Shown piece after piece: positions 7,227 through 42,535 of a DNA stretch of 64,000 nucleotides (the stretch's first letter is position 1; each line of letters begins with the position of its first letter). The stretch spans positions 434,001-498,000 of the forward strand of contig NZ_BNAF01000001.1 of assembly GCF_014653155.1 (NCBI RefSeq). Direction: 5' to 3'. The notes beneath the pieces are model-generated. The model worked only from the letters and a program-made list of their open reading frames with translations. It was not told the origin of the DNA and did no database searches. The DNA is from Sphingobacterium griseoflavum. GTDB taxonomy: Bacteria > Bacteroidota > Bacteroidia > Sphingobacteriales > Sphingobacteriaceae. Made by a program: the position numbers and the translations under genes.

Positions 7227-9263
7227 ATGAAGATAAAGATTTTTTTAGGGATAGGCCTGTGCCTGATAGGCTGCACGCTTTCCCAAAGTTGTAAAGAATA
7301 CAATTTTGATTTTAAAAACGGCTATCAGCAGGGCGATTCCATACCATCGGATATCTTGACAGACACAACCATGTTCGTTGCGGACAGGAGTATGTATGCC
7401 AAGGCGCGCATTTATCCGGGTTTGGTGGGCGACGCGGTGTCACGCATTCAGAGAGATACGAGCGTGACGCTGGATATGAGCAAGGATTATGTGCAAGCAT
7501 TTGCTTACCGCGTAGCGAGCTCGCCGCGGCCTATATACAGTACGGGTTTGTATGCACCGGCCGGTGAAAATATCCGTATCACGGTTCCCGAGGGTGTGGT
7601 GGGTTTGACCGTACAATTGGGGGCACACATGGATAACAACACAGGGCTTGCTGCGCTTCGGCGTGAACCCATTATCTATACGCGCAAAGAGCTATTCCCG
7701 GGTGTAAACTATGTGAAAAATCTCTTCGGCGGTCTGGTCTGGATTGTTAATGAGATTAAAAAGGAGCAACCTGTTACCCTGCGCTTTGCCGGTGTGGTGC
7801 GTACTTCTGATTTTATTTTGGGAGTGACGGATTTAGAAGCATGGAAGCGAGATGTTATCGCCAATGATGTCCCTTGGTTGGAGTTGCGTTCGCGGCATAC
7901 CGTCTACACGGTTCCGCGCTCTTTGCTGGTACGCTACATACGGCAAGGAAGGGCTGATGGAGTCGCGGAGGCGCTCACGCAATGGAATACGAATTATCGA
8001 CGGGATTTCTACGATTGGATGGGCTTAACCGAAAATGCTGCAGAGGCGCACCACCGCTATCCGCAGTTGCCCGAGCGGGGTGTCATGGACATTCATCCGC
8101 GAGCGGGCTACGCCCATGCCGGTAATCCTTGGGTGATGCAGCAGGATGAGTACTGGCTGGAAACACTTATTGATCCCGTGCGCATTCAGGAGGAAGCTTG
8201 GGGCACGTTTCACGAAGTGGGCCATAACTATCAACAGAGTTCCATCTGGAGCTGGTCAGATCTTGGTGAGACCACCAATAACCTTTTTGTATTTAATGGG
8301 GCGCGAAATCGTGGGATAATGGATCGTTCGACGTTTCACCCGGCGGTGGCGGTAGATTTTCCAAAAGCTGTAGCGTGGGCCATGAGCTCAGGTGCGAAAA
8401 ATTTTTCTGATCTACCCGACGACATTAAAGACAGCGCACCATTTTTCCGGATAACACCCTTCTTACAAATATTTGATAAGGCCGTGGGCCGAAATGGTGA
8501 ATTGGGATGGGATTTTTTCCCATTCTTGTATACGAATGCACGAAATTCCACTACGTCGTTTGGATTCGATCAAGCCAAGAAAGATTATTTCTATAGACAG
8601 CTCTGTCATTTTACCGGGCGGGATTACGCGCGTTTTTTCGCTGCTTGGGGCATTAGTGTTTCCGGTATAGCGCGTCGTGAAATTCGGAATCTGTATCCTC
8701 CGATGGATCGTGCCATATGGGAGTATAATCCGGTGACCCGTCAGGGTGGCGATAACACATTGAGCCCTAGGTATGATTTGGACCGTACATCTTGGGTGGT
8801 GACGGCCTCTACCCAATATCCGGAAGAAGGCAATGGCAATGGCGTTGTGGCAGCGCTTGTAGATGGTAATCCCAATACATTTTGGATGAGCCATCCCAAT
8901 TTGGGACAATCGCCACATGTATTAAGGGTTGATATGGGCGAGCTTACGCCGCTTAAAGGTGTTTTTTATCAGGCACGCAACGCCGGAAGCAATATTCCGA
9001 GGACGTTAAGGATTGAAACGAGTTTCAACGGAACTAATTGGCAGCTTGTTACGCCGGAAAGCCTGACCAATGCCCAAAATTATACTTATGATACGACATT
9101 GGAAGCTTTCCATTTGAGCGAGTGGGATCGCTCCCGTAAGGAGTTTATACTAAGATCTGTCATAGAACCCCGCTACATACGATTTACGTTTCCAAGTGCG
9201 ACATCCTTCAGTGGTAGTCGGTTTGTCGGTGTTGCGGAGATTGGGGCATTTTTCGATAACTAA
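7227..9263 (+). CDS. M60-family (enhancin/mucinase-like) zinc metallopeptidase with C-terminal F5/8C domain
   Basis: A 678-residue secreted or lipid-anchored protein; the N-terminal hydrophobic segment contains two candidate lipobox cysteines (LIGC, SQSC). The catalytic signature HEVGH starts at His329 and is followed by N-Y-Q, with Glu348 14 residues after the last histidine. This fits the M60 pattern HExxH(8-28)E, in which the two histidines and the distal glutamate act in zinc binding and catalysis. An upstream domain (about 95-210) has the usual gluzincin-accessory character with an N-terminal beta sandwich. Residues about 530-678 are a discoidin (F5/8 type C) domain (VAALVDGNPNTFWMSHP, LRVDMGE, IRFTFPS). 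Known M60 enzymes cleave O-glycosylated mucin-like proteins, so this is probably the operon's key enzyme, releasing glycopeptides for the SusC/SusD pair (inference). Confidence 0.9.
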   Translation: MKIKIFLGIGLCLIGCTLSQSCKEYNFDFKNGYQQGDSIPSDILTDTTMFVADRSMYAKARIYPGLVGDAVSRIQRDTSVTLDMSKDYVQAFAYRVASSPRPIYSTGLYAPAGENIRITVPEGVVGLTVQLGAHMDNNTGLAALRREPIIYTRKELFPGVNYVKNLFGGLVWIVNEIKKEQPVTLRFAGVVRTSDFILGVTDLEAWKRDVIANDVPWLELRSRHTVYTVPRSLLVRYIRQGRADGVAEALTQWNTNYRRDFYDWMGLTENAAEAHHRYPQLPERGVMDIHPRAGYAHAGNPWVMQQDEYWLETLIDPVRIQEEAWGTFHEVGHNYQQSSIWSWSDLGETTNNLFVFNGARNRGIMDRSTFHPAVAVDFPKAVAWAMSSGAKNFSDLPDDIKDSAPFFRITPFLQIFDKAVGRNGELGWDFFPFLYTNARNSTTSFGFDQAKKDYFYRQLCHFTGRDYARFFAAWGISVSGIARREIRNLYPPMDRAIWEYNPVTRQGGDNTLSPRYDLDRTSWVVTASTQYPEEGNGNGVVAALVDGNPNTFWMSHPNLGQSPHVLRVDMGELTPLKGVFYQARNAGSNIPRTLRIETSFNGTNWQLVTPESLTNAQNYTYDTTLEAFHLSEWDRSRKEFILRSVIEPRYIRFTFPSATSFSGSRFVGVAEIGAFFDN

Positions 9264-38097: not shown

Positions 38098-39162
38098 TTA
38101 TGTATGAGGTGGCGGATCGGGTTTTTGTGTGTTGTTTTTTGTATCATCGCTACTGTAATTATTATAGGCACGTCGCAGGCGCGAAGCTAAGCGGTTGCGT
38201 AGCAACCTAGGAGACAGCACCTGTACAGCTTCACCAAAGCCCAATATCTCCCGCTCCAGCTCGAAGTTAAGCACTACATCCAATCGGATGATGATTTTGC
38301 CGTCCTCTCTGCGATTGACCACCACTTGCGATGCATGCAAGGGTTTGGTCTCCACGTAGGGGGCGGTTCGGGCATCCACTTCCAACATGACCCGCTGCCC
38401 CCGGTCACGCTCGGATTTTGTGACACCGATCGTGTCGGCATAATAACTTTCGAAACTAACACCTTCATAGGGAACGAAGCCTGTTTTGGCCATTTCCTGT
38501 ATGTCTAAAATACGATCCAAGGCCAAGGTGACCAGAATACGCCCCTTTTTGGGCTTCGTAATGACAAACCAACGATTGCGGTATTCCTTTAGCAAATAGG
38601 GGTAGTATACGGATTCAGTAGCCTGCTTGGATTTGAAGGACTTGTACGATATCAAGAGCGGTATGCGCTCGCGAATGGCTTGATATATGGGCGTGATCCA
38701 GTTCAGTCCTTTCAGTAAGCTGTTGCTTTCCAGTTGTATGCTCGTAGCAGCCTCGTTCGCTTGTTTGGCCATATTATGCTCTAAGCGCACGATCATATCG
38801 CTCATTTCCTCAAAATGAGCAAATCCATTGAGGTGCTTGAGAATATCAACAGCCTCTTTCATTTTCTCCATATCATTGTGCGTGAGCGGCGAGTTGCTGA
38901 TGGAATAGGCGGGGTCTTCGTAGGTGTAGTATTTCCTCTTTAACACAATGATAGGCGCATTATAACCGAGCTTATTGCTGCGCATAACCTGTATATCGCT
39001 CTGTATGGTACGTTTACTGACCCCATTGTGGATGCCTTCAAACTCATATAGCGCATCGGAAACACGATCGATAAGGTCTTCCAGCGTCCATTTTCTGTGC
39101 GTTTGGCGTAGGCAATTGTCTATGGTCTTGTAACGTATGAGTGCAGCTTTGTTTGTAGACAT
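38098..39162 (-). CDS. WYL-domain transcriptional regulator
   Basis: A 354-residue protein. Residues about 1-75 form a winged helix-turn-helix (ALIRYKTIDNCLRQTHRKWT, GVSKRTIQSDIQVMRS, and a beta wing). Residues about 165-265 are the WYL domain (IYQAIRERIPLLISYKSF, YYPYLLKEYRNRWFVITKPK), in which the usual W-Y-L is W-F-V. The remaining 90 residues form a WCX-type C-terminal extension (VMLEVDARTAPYVETKPLHA, FELEREILGFGEAVQVLSP). WYL domains bind nucleic-acid or nucleotide ligands in known cases (for example ssDNA for DriD). It diverges from the tRNA-like array and slipin-rtcB operon with about 395 bp between the start codon and the array. It is therefore a candidate sensor of RNA damage that controls them (inference). 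Confidence 0.9.
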   Translation of the reverse strand: MSTNKAALIRYKTIDNCLRQTHRKWTLEDLIDRVSDALYEFEGIHNGVSKRTIQSDIQVMRSNKLGYNAPIIVLKRKYYTYEDPAYSISNSPLTHNDMEKMKEAVDILKHLNGFAHFEEMSDMIVRLEHNMAKQANEAATSIQLESNSLLKGLNWITPIYQAIRERIPLLISYKSFKSKQATESVYYPYLLKEYRNRWFVITKPKKGRILVTLALDRILDIQEMAKTGFVPYEGVSFESYYADTIGVTKSERDRGQRVMLEVDARTAPYVETKPLHASQVVVNRREDGKIIIRLDVVLNFELEREILGFGEAVQVLSPRLLRNRLASRLRRAYNNYSSDDTKNNTQKPDPPPHT

Positions 39163-39557
39163 AGCTAATGATGACGATCTATTGTGTAGCTAAAGCTATA
39201 AAGAATATCTGAATTACGCAATATAGCTGCGTAGTAGGCTCGCTCGTATTATAGCTTGTACATTTTATTTCATTTTATTTGTTTGTATTACAGTTGTTTC
39301 CTTGGTTTTTATGCTGTTGTCGATTCGTTTTTTTTATTGCGCAGTCCTGCTGCGCATAGCTGTTTGCAACTTTGTCATGTCAGCAATGGCAACGTTCTTT
39401 GATAAAACAAGCAATCGCTTAAAGATATAGCTCATCAGAGCTTAAAGAAGCCTTAATTACCGACTTGCACCCTGCATCATCTGCTTCTGCATGGCAGGAT
39501 AGTGTCGATCCCACTGGGACACGATATACTGGGGGTAACGACGTATTTGGGCACCAC
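39163..39557. other. Intergenic region between the WYL gene and the tRNA-like array
   Basis: It contains no gene. The first 130 bp is A/T-rich with a T-rich run near 39260-39330 and probably carries the divergent promoters. A hairpin CCTGC...GCAGG (39471-39498) and a second with TCCC-ACT-GGGA inside GTG...CAC (39502-39520) lie upstream of the array. A short GCTTAAAGA direct repeat occurs at about 39417 and 39440. No sigma-54 type promoter was convincing. Confidence 0.45.
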
Positions 39558-39620
39558 GGCTGAGGTTAGGGGTTCGAGTCCCCTCTTCGAAAGAAGTAGC
39601 TCAAAGGTTAGAGTACAGCC
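39558..39620 (+). ncRNA. Permuted tRNA-like unit 1, opened at the anticodon loop
   Basis: In order: anticodon 3' strand GGCTG (39558-39562), variable AGGTT, T-arm AGGGG-TTCGAGT-CCCCT (39568-39584), capped acceptor CTTC-GAAA-GAAG (39585-39596), TA, D-arm GCTC-AAAGGTTA-GAGT (39599-39614), A, and anticodon 5' strand CAGCC (39616-39620). GGCTG and CAGCC pair perfectly. The acceptor stem is shortened to four pairs. The anticodon loop is not closed; its 3' side would be the bases before 39558 and its 5' side CCA at 39621-39623. Confidence 0.85.
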
Positions 39621-39623
39621 CCA

Positions 39624-39691
39624 TTTGCGGGTCGAAGGTTCGATTCCTTCTTCCGACTTGTCGGAATAGCTCAGAAGGTTAGAGCAGCAAA
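39624..39691 (+). ncRNA. Permuted tRNA-like unit 2, opened at the anticodon loop
   Basis: In order: anticodon 3' strand TTTGC (39624-39628), variable GGGTC, T-arm GAAGG-TTCGATT-CCTTC (39634-39650), capped acceptor TTCCGAC-TT-GTCGGAA (39651-39666, a CUUG loop closed by C-G), TA, canonical D-arm GCTC-AGAAGGTTA-GAGC (39669-39685), A, and anticodon 5' strand GCAAA (39687-39691). TTTGC and GCAAA pair perfectly. Only three bases (CCA) separate it from unit 1. Confidence 0.87.
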
Positions 39692-39695
39692 CAAC

Positions 39696-39773
39696 AAAGT
39701 GTGGGTTCGAATCCCACTTCTACTTCGGTAGAATAGCGTAATGGTATCGCACAGATCTGTAGAATCTGGTTAC
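39696..39773 (+). ncRNA. Permuted tRNA-like unit 3, opened in the variable region, with intact anticodon arm
   Basis: T-arm GTGGG-TTCGAAT-CCCAC (39701-39717), capped acceptor TTCTAC-TTCG-GTAGAA (39718-39733), TA, D-arm GCG-TAATGGTAT-CGC (39736-39750), A, then a complete anticodon arm CAGAT-CTGTAGA-ATCTG (39752-39768) with anticodon GTA (positions 34-36), and GTTAC. No T-arm follows; the T-arm precedes it instead. The break is therefore between the variable loop and the T-stem, unlike units 1 and 2. Confidence 0.72.
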
Positions 39774-40062
39774 ATGTTAAACTTCATCAAAAAGTTAAAA
39801 CGAATGGGTAGGCGATATTCGATCTGGCAATTTAGCGGCTAGTATTTGGGTGCTTTCTTGCAATCGTTCAGCTGCTTCGCGATTGAAAACAAGCTGCTTG
39901 ATGCGGTTTCGAACATAGATGGACTCGTTTTACTGTGGTAGGACAGCGGTCAACAAGAAGTACAAACCAAGGCAGGCGTCTCCTTTTGAATCCCGTAGCC
40001 GACCGATGGATCGGACGATCGCTTACCTTTTTTAAAGATGAAACAATATAAAAATAGAAGAT
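39774..40062. other. Intergenic region between the array and slipin
   Basis: No gene was found. Hairpins include CGAAT...ATTCG (39801-39821) and CAATCG...CGATTG (39861-39885), and a CCGAT-GG-ATCGG palindrome near 40000. Isolated tRNA-like words (GGTTTCGAAC near 39905, TGAATCCCG near 39988) do not fold into arms and were not called. Confidence 0.45.
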
Positions 40063-40917
40063 ATGAAAAGAATACATATAGCCTTTAACCACGTAGGTTT
40101 TGTGGTTAAAAATCAAGTGGTACAACGGGTACTGACATCGGGGAAATACTGGCTGGGCTTTGGCGAGAAGCTGGAGCTTCATGATAAGGCACGGCCAGAG
40201 TTCGCACCTTTTGTGCGGCAGTATAAGTTGGACCCTGCAGAAAAAGGATTGTTATTTGTCGATGGGCAGTTTAAGCAGGTGCTGGAGGGTGGCGTGTACA
40301 CTTGGTGGAAGAATGCTACCGCCATTGCGGTTTCAAAGGTCGATACCCGTGTGTTGTCCATAGACATCAATGGGCAAGAGATCCTGACGAAGGATAAGGC
40401 ACAAATCCGCGTGAACTTTTCCGTGCGCTACAGGGTGCTTGATGTGGTACGTGCGCTGTTGGAGAATAAAGAACATGAAAAGCAGCTCTATATGTTGATG
40501 CAATTGTTGCTGCGTACGTACATAGGACACATGACACTAGACGAGATCATGGAAAAGAAAGATGACGTCAACCAATTTATTTCCTCGGAAGCGCATGTAC
40601 AAGCAGCGTCGCTGGGTTTAGAAATACAATTCTGTGGGATCAAGGATATCATCTTGCCAGGTGACGTGCGGGATATCATGAACCAAGTGTTGATTGCCGA
40701 GAAGCGTGCGCAGGCAAATATCATCACGCGGCGTGAAGAGACGGCATCGACGCGAAGCTTGCTGAATACTGCAAAGCTAATGGAAGAAAATGTTATGCTG
40801 TTTAAGCTGAAGGAAATGGAGTATGTTGAGAAGATCTCCGAAAAGATTAGTACGGTATCGCTGTCCGGAAATGGGCAGCTTATCGATCAGCTTAAGCAGT
40901 GGTTTGTCAAGAGCTAA
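40063..40917 (+). CDS. Slipin-type SPFH/band-7 protein
   Basis: A 284-residue protein. The N-terminal extension (MKRIHIAFNHVGFVVKNQVV) lacks a clear transmembrane helix, although slipins usually have one or a hairpin. The SPFH domain covers about 60-250: LEGGVYTWWKNATAIAVSKV, VDTRVLSIDINGQEILTKDK, VNFSVRYRVLDV, GIKDIILPGDVRDIMNQVLI, and the C-terminal helical region EKRAQANIITRREETASTRS. Slipins are known as common partners of RtcB in bacterial RNA-repair operons. It is followed by rtcB after 138 bp that contain a strong hairpin. Its role in repair is not established; it could scaffold the ligase or RNA. Confidence 0.85.
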   Translation: MKRIHIAFNHVGFVVKNQVVQRVLTSGKYWLGFGEKLELHDKARPEFAPFVRQYKLDPAEKGLLFVDGQFKQVLEGGVYTWWKNATAIAVSKVDTRVLSIDINGQEILTKDKAQIRVNFSVRYRVLDVVRALLENKEHEKQLYMLMQLLLRTYIGHMTLDEIMEKKDDVNQFISSEAHVQAASLGLEIQFCGIKDIILPGDVRDIMNQVLIAEKRAQANIITRREETASTRSLLNTAKLMEENVMLFKLKEMEYVEKISEKISTVSLSGNGQLIDQLKQWFVKS

Positions 40918-41055: not shown

Positions 41056-42474
41056 ATGGAAAATAAACGTATAAATGGTAACGATCTATTAGCATTAGGC
41101 TACGATGAAAATTCTGCTTTGGGCGTCGCCTTGCAGATTAATAAGAAAAGATTGGGCTTCACGCGTGAGCAGATGCTAGCTTATTTCTCGGCTGTATTGG
41201 CCAATCCGGAAGCGTATTTAGAAGATGCTATTTTTAAGACATTGGCGCAGGAACTGTTGAAACAAGATGAGCTGGAAGCCTCGTATATCGCACTTAAAGA
41301 AGAGGGGCATTACGAAATTTACGGGGAAGAGCATATTGAAGAAGGGGCGAAGCAGCAGATGCAAGTAGCTATGACGTTGCCGGTCTCTGTAGCGGGCGCC
41401 CTGATGCCAGATGCGCACCAAGGCTATGGCCTGCCTATCGGCGGGGTGCTGGCCACGAGCAATGCCGTCATTCCCTACGGCGTGGGCGTGGATATCGGTT
41501 GTCGCATGGCGTTGTCTATTTTTGATCTACCTGCCGCATACTTGACGGAGCATAGCGATGCGTTAAAGAAAGTCATTATGCAAACCACGAAGTTTGGCGC
41601 TGGCCAAGGTTTCCAAAAAGGAGATCGAGCAAGCCATGCCGTTTTAGAGCAGGATACCTTTGCCATGAATGATTTGTTGCGGTCCTTGAAGGACAAGGCT
41701 TGGGCACAACTGGGCACTTCCGGCGGTGGAAATCACTTTGTAGAGTTTGGTGTGATTGCCTTTGAGCAGACCGATGCGGATCTAGGTGTTCAAGCCGGTG
41801 AATATTTGGCTTTATTAACCCATTCGGGATCGCGCGGGCTAGGAGCAACGCTAGCCGACCACTACACCAAACTAGCTAAGCAGCTTTGTAAGCTGCCTTA
41901 TAAAGCACAACATTTGGCTTACCTAGATTTGGGAACGGCGGAAGGACAGGAATATTGGATGGCGATGAATCTGGCGGGCGACTACGCATCGGCATGCCAC
42001 GAAGTGATCCATGAAAAGGTGCGCCAACAGTTGGGGGCGGAGCGCTTGGCAAAGGTCGAAAATCACCACAACTTTGCATGGAAGGAAATGTGGAATGGGC
42101 AAGAGCTGATTGTGCATCGAAAGGGAGCAACGCCTGCAGCCAAAGGGGTAATGGGTATTATTCCGGGTTCCATGGCCTCGCCAGGATTCTTGGTGCGCGG
42201 TAAAGGACAGATGGAGTCCATCAACTCGGCCTCGCACGGTGCCGGACGATTGATGAGCCGTACAAAGGCAATCAAAACCCTTGCGGCAGCGGATTTAAAG
42301 GCTATCCTAAATGATCAAGGAATCACGTTGATGGGTGCCGGTATGGATGAAGCGCCTATGGCCTATAAAGACATACATACCGTTATGGCTGCGCAGCAGG
42401 ATCTTGTTGACGTGTTGGCTACTTTCTCGCCTAAGATTGTGCGGATGGCCGACGATGGTAGTCGAGAGGATTAG
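41056..42474 (+). CDS. rtcB: RtcB-family RNA 3'-phosphate/5'-OH ligase
   Basis: A 472-residue protein with the RtcB active-site motifs in order: MPDAHQGYGLPIGGV (Asp119, His121), DIGCRMAL (Cys149, the Mn-binding cysteine), GTSGGGNHFVEFG, THSGSRGLGA, VENHHNFAW, VHRKGATPAAKG, MGIIPGSMASPGF, and SASHGAGRLMSRTKA, in which the histidine accepts guanylate. RtcB seals RNA ends with 2',3'-cyclic phosphate (or 3'-phosphate) and 5'-OH, the ends left by anticodon nucleases. Length and motifs are complete. It lies in the slipin operon downstream of the permuted tRNA-like array, with a WYL regulator diverging. It ends before a long symmetric terminator. Confidence 0.96.
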   Translation: MENKRINGNDLLALGYDENSALGVALQINKKRLGFTREQMLAYFSAVLANPEAYLEDAIFKTLAQELLKQDELEASYIALKEEGHYEIYGEEHIEEGAKQQMQVAMTLPVSVAGALMPDAHQGYGLPIGGVLATSNAVIPYGVGVDIGCRMALSIFDLPAAYLTEHSDALKKVIMQTTKFGAGQGFQKGDRASHAVLEQDTFAMNDLLRSLKDKAWAQLGTSGGGNHFVEFGVIAFEQTDADLGVQAGEYLALLTHSGSRGLGATLADHYTKLAKQLCKLPYKAQHLAYLDLGTAEGQEYWMAMNLAGDYASACHEVIHEKVRQQLGAERLAKVENHHNFAWKEMWNGQELIVHRKGATPAAKGVMGIIPGSMASPGFLVRGKGQMESINSASHGAGRLMSRTKAIKTLAAADLKAILNDQGITLMGAGMDEAPMAYKDIHTVMAAQQDLVDVLATFSPKIVRMADDGSRED

Positions 42475-42483
42475 GTTTTGATG

Positions 42484-42528
42484 TTGTTTTATGGAACGGA
42501 TTACGACATAGTCCGTTCCATAAAACAA
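42484..42528. terminator. Perfect 17-bp bidirectional terminator
   Basis: A 17-base arm (42484-42500, starting TTGTTTTATGG), an 11-base loop, and its exact complement (42512-42528). It lies between the rtcB stop and the convergent 42536 frame, with A/T runs on both sides. Confidence 0.85.
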
Positions 42529-42535
42529 TTCCCCA

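Follow-up and report, generated by a model that had tools for sequence, protein, structure and literature searches.

Within the window, the 64,000-nt stretch of Sphingobacterium griseoflavum DNA analysed here, an array of three tRNA-like modules (39558–39768) precedes the slipin and rtcB genes, and its last module bears a closed anticodon arm, which is the new feature of this element. Each module is ordered T-arm, acceptor, D-arm, with the two acceptor strands adjacent and closed by a short loop. The arm order, the covarying stems, the anticodon arm of the last module, the linkage to rtcB and the changing anticodon loop are shown by comparison of related loci at the sequence level. As to function, we give roughly even chances to the array being a Y-RNA-type chain of permuted mimics that would serve as a decoy, drawing tRNA-cutting enzymes to the last module. 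The wider proposal of a phylum-wide, re-targetable RNA bait, in which a tandem decoy with an interchangeable anticodon arm is followed by a ligase that would reseal it, is put forward more tentatively, as a possibility somewhat short of even.

Organization of the array locus

The features of the locus are listed below in order of position.

38098–39162, minus strand: WYL/WCX-domain regulator gene, divergent from the array (Pfam WCX 4.7e-15, WYL 1.5e-9)
39215–39233, unstranded: inverted repeat TACGCA-N7-TGCGTA, possible operator near the start of the WYL gene (pattern search; role inferred)
39338–39356, unstranded: inverted repeat TGCGCA-N7-TGCGCA, which may be an operator for the promoter of the array (conserved in the 23-leader alignment and found by pattern; role inferred)
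39367–39374, plus strand: CAACTTTG, candidate Bacteroidota -7 promoter element (conserved in the 23-leader alignment)
39378–39391, plus strand: hairpin TGTCA-GCAA-TGGCA
39394–39402, plus strand: boxA-like GTTCTTTGA
39481–39497, plus strand: 5' domain hairpin with the 7-nt loop TCTGCAT (conserved in the 23-leader alignment)
39501–39530, plus strand: 5' domain hairpin AGTGTCG..CGATATACT (two-sided stem changes legible in the alignment)
39558–39620, plus strand: module 1, permuted tRNA mimic, open at the anticodon side and closed at the acceptor, CTTC GAAA GAAG (stem inspection, covariation, folding)
39624–39691, plus strand: module 2, permuted tRNA mimic, likewise open at the anticodon side and closed at the acceptor (stems, covariation; 84.3 bits with model R2 in its own genome)
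39701–39768, plus strand: module 3, the last, permuted tRNA mimic closed at the acceptor and bearing a full anticodon arm (ARAGORN tRNA-Tyr(gta) in tRNA order, none in native order)
39757–39763, plus strand: loop of the anticodon arm in module 3, CTGTAGA, with the anticodon GTA at 39759–39761
39780–39796, plus strand: hairpin AACTT..AAGTT after the array (covarying stem)
39806–40029, plus strand: 3' domain, closed by a long-range helix of 39806–39826 with 40007–40029 (covariation)
40063–40917, plus strand: slipin (SPFH/Band 7) gene (Pfam Band_7 3.3e-25)
41056–42474, plus strand: rtcB RNA ligase gene (Pfam RtcB 8.2e-85)

The array lies in a spacer of 900 bases between the WYL gene and slipin, for which the only listed reading frame of at least 80 aa is a 104-aa minus-strand frame overlapping slipin. 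The rtcB gene is the single RtcB match of the genome, and a search of six proteins against a defence library returned a match for the WYL protein alone. A relative (G006, L065) has a 365-aa slipin; that of the window is otherwise very similar but 81 aa shorter, lacking a stretch between two similar N-terminal repeats. Just 3' of rtcB, a strong inverted repeat (42480–42532) is probably a terminator; animal microRNA models match both of its strands below their cut-offs.

In modules 1 and 2, one strand of the anticodon stem precedes the T-arm and the other follows the D-arm; the anticodon side of these modules thus opens into the chain. Their stems are present as the sequence-only reading had given them (GGCTG 39558–39562 with CAGCC 39616–39620, TTTGC 39624–39628 with GCAAA 39687–39691), and its claim of a permuted array in an rtcB locus is borne out by the covariation and by the slipin-rtcB linkage across Bacteroidota described below. 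The first two modules are open at the anticodon loop as it had stated, but it had overlooked that the third is not: here a full anticodon arm, CAGAT CTGTAGA ATCTG (39752–39768), comes after the D-arm. The flanking conserved domains and the WYL regulator had escaped it as well, and the conserved non-coding region extends from about 39375 to 40030 rather than over 39558–39773 only. We take this whole region to be a structured RNA of about 650 nt. The dismissal of a tRNA in normal order agrees with ARAGORN, which calls none in the window, but the Rfam tRNA model does score 33.6 bits (cut-off 29) at 39660–39724; this match spans modules 2 and 3 and its acceptor ends pair poorly. The Rfam search of 39300–40070, with E up to 10, returned tRNA, YrlA and weak unrelated matches and no riboswitch, ribozyme or T-box, and a known element of any of these three kinds was rejected on this basis.

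An alignment of 23 leaders, in which the motifs were read by eye, contains in order TRCGCA-N7-TGCGYA, a CANNTTTG element, a TGTCA-N4-TGACA hairpin (present in most of the leaders), the boxA-like GTTCTTTGA, two hairpins and the array. The boxA-like site was seen by eye in 22 of the 23 leaders and by pattern in 60 of 81 regions (80 loci and the window), and the inverted repeat, counting either site, fits a strict pattern in 52 of the 81. The strict motif of the TCTGCAT-loop hairpin occurs in 34 of the 81, with the window, which departs from it by one base, not among them. The names operator, -7 element and boxA follow usage that we presume to apply here: CAACTTTG is matched to what we take to be the Bacteroidota -7 consensus, and GTTCTTTGA would presumably act in antitermination. 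The rRNA leaders of the same genome carry TACCTTTG and GTTCTTTAA, the latter with a boxA core recognised by eye, and the matches that BLAST gave between them and the array leader were short and at chance level. Promoter, operator and boxA are predicted roles, and the array is predicted to be transcribed together with the slipin-rtcB operon under the divergent WYL regulator. Downstream of the array, the 3' hairpin and the long-range helix covary: among 17 sequences, two-sided changes affect 16 of the 24 pairs predicted, with a low energy of the consensus fold.

Covariation and distribution across Bacteroidota

Folded alone, module 1 adopts exactly the permuted four-stem shape and module 3 forms four separate hairpins, while the T-arm of module 2 is shifted in the minimum-energy fold. 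The folding energies of the three modules correspond to z of -1.6, -1.2 and -1.9, and that of a 698-nt fold to -1.0, its minimum-energy structure being without the permuted form of modules 1 and 2. Folding energy by itself is weak evidence, which counts against the decoy reading, and the comparative evidence is decisive.

A covariance model built on the inner module (R1) gave 45 matches over the chosen loci, 42 of them distinct. Among these 42, 97.1% of cells pair over the whole structure, compared with 73.3% in shuffles and 38–52% in slid controls, the alignment being fitted to the model and hence biased towards the structure. Two-sided changes were found in 218 cells, whereas shuffles averaged 63 (sd 8.8) and slid controls ranged from 7 to 34; the stems thus covary in related loci, which is the check that the sequence-only reading had called for. 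A measure of further pair types was equalled by 50 of 500 shuffles. The anticodon-stem helix, which exists only in the permuted register, pairs in 93.4% of cells and has two-sided changes at five of five pairs. The differing anticodon stems are also legible directly (GGCTG/CAGCC, TTTGC/GCAAA, GTTGT/ACAAC, TGCCA/TGGCA and TACTG/CAGTA); it should be noted that the unit parsers pick the best-scoring stems.

Homologues of the slipin led to 22 loci of the same genus, that of S. griseoflavum included, each with at least one unit upstream of slipin and some with only one. The 45 matches of R1 were used to build a second model, R2, which was run on 80 named loci found via slipin. These are the best 80 of at least 513 and come from Sphingobacterium, Pedobacter, Taibaiella, Emticicia, Chitinophaga, Chryseolinea, Tenacibaculum and metagenome-assembled genomes of Saprospiraceae, Cyclobacteriaceae, Cryomorphaceae and others. 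R2 matched upstream of slipin, with E below 1e-7, in 75 of the 80 loci, of which the Sphingobacterium members overlap those behind the model. In a second sample of 395 genomes of the phylum, 20 possess this slipin and a module match was found in 17 of the 18 loci searched. The rtcB gene falls inside the fetched flank in 67 of the 75 loci with a module match and in none of the five without (p 5e-5), some of these five being short contigs. Tandem tRNA genes match the permuted models too, as longer matches (79–107 nt on L001, L002, L044 and L045), and genome-wide tallies therefore over-count, for which reason we rely on matches upstream of slipin. Viral contigs contained one distant slipin relative (L202), without a module match.

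The neighbourhood varies among the 80 loci, with a WYL homologue near 56 and a TROVE gene near three. An RlaP nucleotidyltransferase gene follows slipin in L141 and separates it from rtcB in L147; the cluster of L196 includes an exonuclease gene. One relative (G008; L200, 6960–7092) lacks slipin, boxA and most of the 3' domain and has two modules immediately ahead of rtcB, an arrangement that is either a natural minimal form or a decaying locus. Versions of the inner-module-type mimic linked to TROVE occur in the same family. Several further observations concern single loci. A TROVE gene shares one cluster with slipin and the array in L141, L145 and L196, and in L196 more module matches follow TROVE. 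In Sphingobacterium, L048 (4847–6700) and likewise L049, L050 and L051 contain a second locus with an ORF of 522 aa or similar, followed by two apparent Y RNAs with longer stems; the ORF of L048 combines TROVE with a Ro60 vWA domain. In L054 (8300–9719), rtcB matches lie in two frames overlapping at 8598–8602, possibly a frameshift or a sequencing error.

The last module and its anticodon arm

We scored as a closed arm a hairpin directly after the D-arm of the last unit, judged on its stem alone. The 81 regions yielded 53 such arms, and 28 gave none by this criterion; the loop is 7 nt long in 31 of the 53 and of another length in 22. All 23 distinct 7-nt arms have U33 (T), and 20 of them a purine at position 37. 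The last modules were then written in tRNA order, namely acceptor 3' strand, D-arm, anticodon arm, variable stretch, T-arm and acceptor 5' strand. In this order ARAGORN called a tRNA in 50 of the 53, compared with none of the 53 in native order, and the controls (2120 dinucleotide shuffles and 738 other rotations) produced no call. An amino acid was assigned in 37 of the 50 calls and a stop in one, with 12 lacking a readable anticodon; in the second sample, 16 of 17 closed units were called, one without a readable anticodon. The regions without a closed last module, the loops of other lengths and the calls without a readable anticodon all count against the decoy reading, as do some anticodons (agg) that are unusual for bacteria.

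The amino acids called are Leu, Pro, Asp, Lys, Asn, Tyr, Ile, Phe and Gln, the window giving Tyr(gta). Six of 17 distinct 7-nt loop sequences are identical to loops among 41 tRNAs read from the S. griseoflavum genome, and the loop of module 3 is one base apart from that of its own tRNA-Tyr. In L224 and L225, one open module is accompanied by two closed ones, called Phe and Asn.

The loop changes faster than its surroundings. Around the array, five of 361 sites differ between the window and a close relative, four of them in the 7-nt anticodon loop. Over the whole spacer, 47 of 900 sites differ from G006, distributed as 27 of 240 up to boxA, none of 155 in the 5' domain, one of 199 in the array before the loop, four of seven in the loop and 15 of 299 after it. 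The loop thus stands out against the 5' domain and array body (4/7 against 1/354, p 2.5e-7); set against all 900 nt of the spacer, its excess of changes is less marked (p 5e-4), which weakens the decoy reading somewhat.

A similar pattern is seen between loci. Among 91 pairs of distinct last modules with bodies at least 90% alike, the arms are under 60% alike in 15 and under 80% in 41, a comparison for which 58 regions passed a stricter body pattern and in which some arms (L159, L165) may be misread hairpins. For example, L014, L020 and L021, all from Sphingobacterium, share an identical body, which bears a TTTAGG arm in the first and a CTGTCCA arm, called Asp, in the other two. On the evidence of these alignments, the anticodon arm is exchanged between close relatives on a nearly constant chain, and a change confined to this arm fits a moving target.

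Possible functions and comparison with known systems

According to the decoy reading, the modules would be neither charged nor used in translation owing to their closed acceptor, and the last module would be bound or cut by anticodon nucleases in place of real tRNAs or in addition to them. The RtcB encoded downstream would then reseal the cut module. The open inner modules, which are like tRNA already split at the anticodon, may hold repair proteins or present the split state, and exchange of the anticodon arm would re-target the decoy once the attacking nuclease changes. The sequence-only reading had already raised a decoy, an idea strengthened by the presence of an anticodon arm in the last module and by the fast change of its loop; the cleavage by nucleases is what we infer. 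The decoy reading is favoured by the covariation, the module matches in 75 of 80 and 17 of 18 loci, the rtcB linkage and the calls in tRNA order with their controls, together with U33 and the purine at 37, the loops shared with real tRNAs, the loop change, the exchange of arms on alike bodies and the G008 modules standing directly before rtcB without slipin. To these may be added a suggestion from Salmonella, where the authors raise competitive inhibition of nucleases by the Y RNA YrlA as a possibility, in the excerpted text of their report (PMC7790460). The same excerpt records no YrlA fragments detected, so YrlA is presumably not cut by a nuclease there, which counts against the decoy reading. 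The inner modules, having no anticodon loop, also need another role under it, and a scaffold with slipin or RtcB is its main rival.

Such a scaffold, in which the modules would tether repair or decay enzymes to a slipin assembly as Y RNA tethers PNPase to Ro60, is the strongest of the alternatives, though we consider it unlikely. Slipin and the array would here stand in for Ro60 and Y RNA at the same place of the operon. Indeed, TROVE takes the place near rtcB in other loci (L111, L113), and among 301 genomes of the family 66 possess the slipin, 37 TROVE and only three both (p 0.03, kinship ignored); a module match lies upstream of slipin in at least 62 of the 66 slipin genomes, among the matches listed. 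The open inner modules fit a scaffold, as does the binding of PNPase by the tRNA-like part of YrlA, described in the excerpted text of PMC8394870. However, this explanation leaves the changing anticodon arm unaccounted for, the modules and rtcB are retained without slipin in G008, and TROVE and slipin occur together in three loci.

Slightly less probable still is a sensor acting in cis, where cutting of the anticodon arm, or a tRNA-handling factor, would alter the leader fold or boxA read-through and thereby switch slipin-rtcB. The position of the array before slipin, the conserved boxA-like site and the 3' domain between array and gene are consistent with it. On the other hand, the analysis identified neither a terminator nor a ribosome-site switch, a fast-changing anticodon would be needless in a fixed sensor, and the 3' domain is largely lost in G008. 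The closure of each module by RtcB into a stable circle, as the sequence-only reading had proposed, draws on the ends of the open modules near the anticodon loop and on the rtcB gene downstream; it appears very improbable, since no processing site was found, the last module is closed at the anticodon and no finding here requires circle closure.

That the last module matures by way of a circular form to give a functional tRNA, as happens in red algae, would agree with its being called a tRNA in tRNA order, but we regard this as barely credible. The joining loops of the acceptor are 2 to 7 nt long (the parser allowed none longer) and leave no space for a discriminator and CCA, the classes called in 50 of 53 modules differ in anticodon and are unrelated to need, and a further 54 tRNA matches exceed the cut-off in the genome, a Tyr(gta) gene among them. 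A permuted gene making working tRNA was rejected for these missing acceptor ends. Finally, a decayed tRNA cluster or chance, for which the matches of the permuted model to tandem tRNA genes might speak, has the least claim of all, given the permuted-register covariation, the operon place kept across families and an array body nearly unchanged in relatives; an ordinary or decayed tRNA cluster was rejected for the covariation, the ARAGORN result and the position.

If the wider proposal of a re-targetable bait is true, the array would be the first circularly permuted tRNA mimic with an anticodon; this anticodon would record the nucleases met by a lineage, and the operon would hold both the lure and its repair. 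It would also be an RNA decoy that switches target by the swap of one arm. The purpose of the tRNA-like part of Y RNA and the natural substrates of bacterial RtcB are questions on which the locus gives a handle, with permuted mimics before rtcB, a genome without Ro60 and an exchangeable anticodon arm. In the literature covered, which takes in the key Y RNA and RNA-repair work only in part, we found no description of a slipin-linked array.

The closest known relative is YrlA (Rfam RF02553; crystal 6CU1; rsr-yrlBA-rtcBA operons), which shares with the array the permuted T, acceptor and D arms, the closed acceptor and the linkage to rtcB. The sequence-only reading knew of no described bacterial example, a statement that does not hold: YrlA, with its D, T and acceptor arms (PMC8394870, in excerpt), has been published as a circularly permuted tRNA mimic (PMC11472068, in excerpt) and is encoded in Salmonella in an operon with Ro60 and rtcBA (PMC7790460, in excerpt). 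Both the permuted fold and the RtcB link are thus already known from YrlA, going by these excerpts. The array differs in consisting of two or more tandem modules, the last one with an anticodon arm, and in lacking the basal Ro60-binding stem, its 5-bp stems running straight into the next module. The Rfam YrlA model aligned over its positions 23–85 and 30–81 in the window (28.1 and 28.4 bits) and 23–88 in the S. griseoflavum genome (best 41), below the gathering cut-off of 69 bits, which was exceeded in none of 99 related genomes. Ro60 (TROVE) had no match in the S. griseoflavum genome and a match in one of 14 control genomes. By sequence, the inner modules are of the YrlA type, and the array resembles, and may work like, a Y RNA mimic; it is not filed as YrlA because Ro60 and the basal stem are lacking and the score is below the cut-off.

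Permuted tRNA genes of algae and Thermofilum share the permuted order and a readable anticodon with the last module. They yield tRNA via a circle, with an intervening sequence and a BHB motif, according to the excerpted text of PMC3978253, whereas the acceptor of the array is sealed by a short loop. In the RNA-repair literature, as excerpted from PMC7824862, RtcB joins the ends left by metal-independent RNases, and TROVE together with its tRNA-like partner is presented as a platform for repair. The genes of such RlaP/RtcB/TROVE repair operons co-occur with slipin in relatives of the array locus. The leader of the synthetase mRNA thrS in E. coli mimics an anticodon arm and, like the array, lies upstream of a coding gene; there the mimic fits the regulated synthetase, whereas the anticodon of the array varies by species and the genes that follow it encode a slipin and a ligase.
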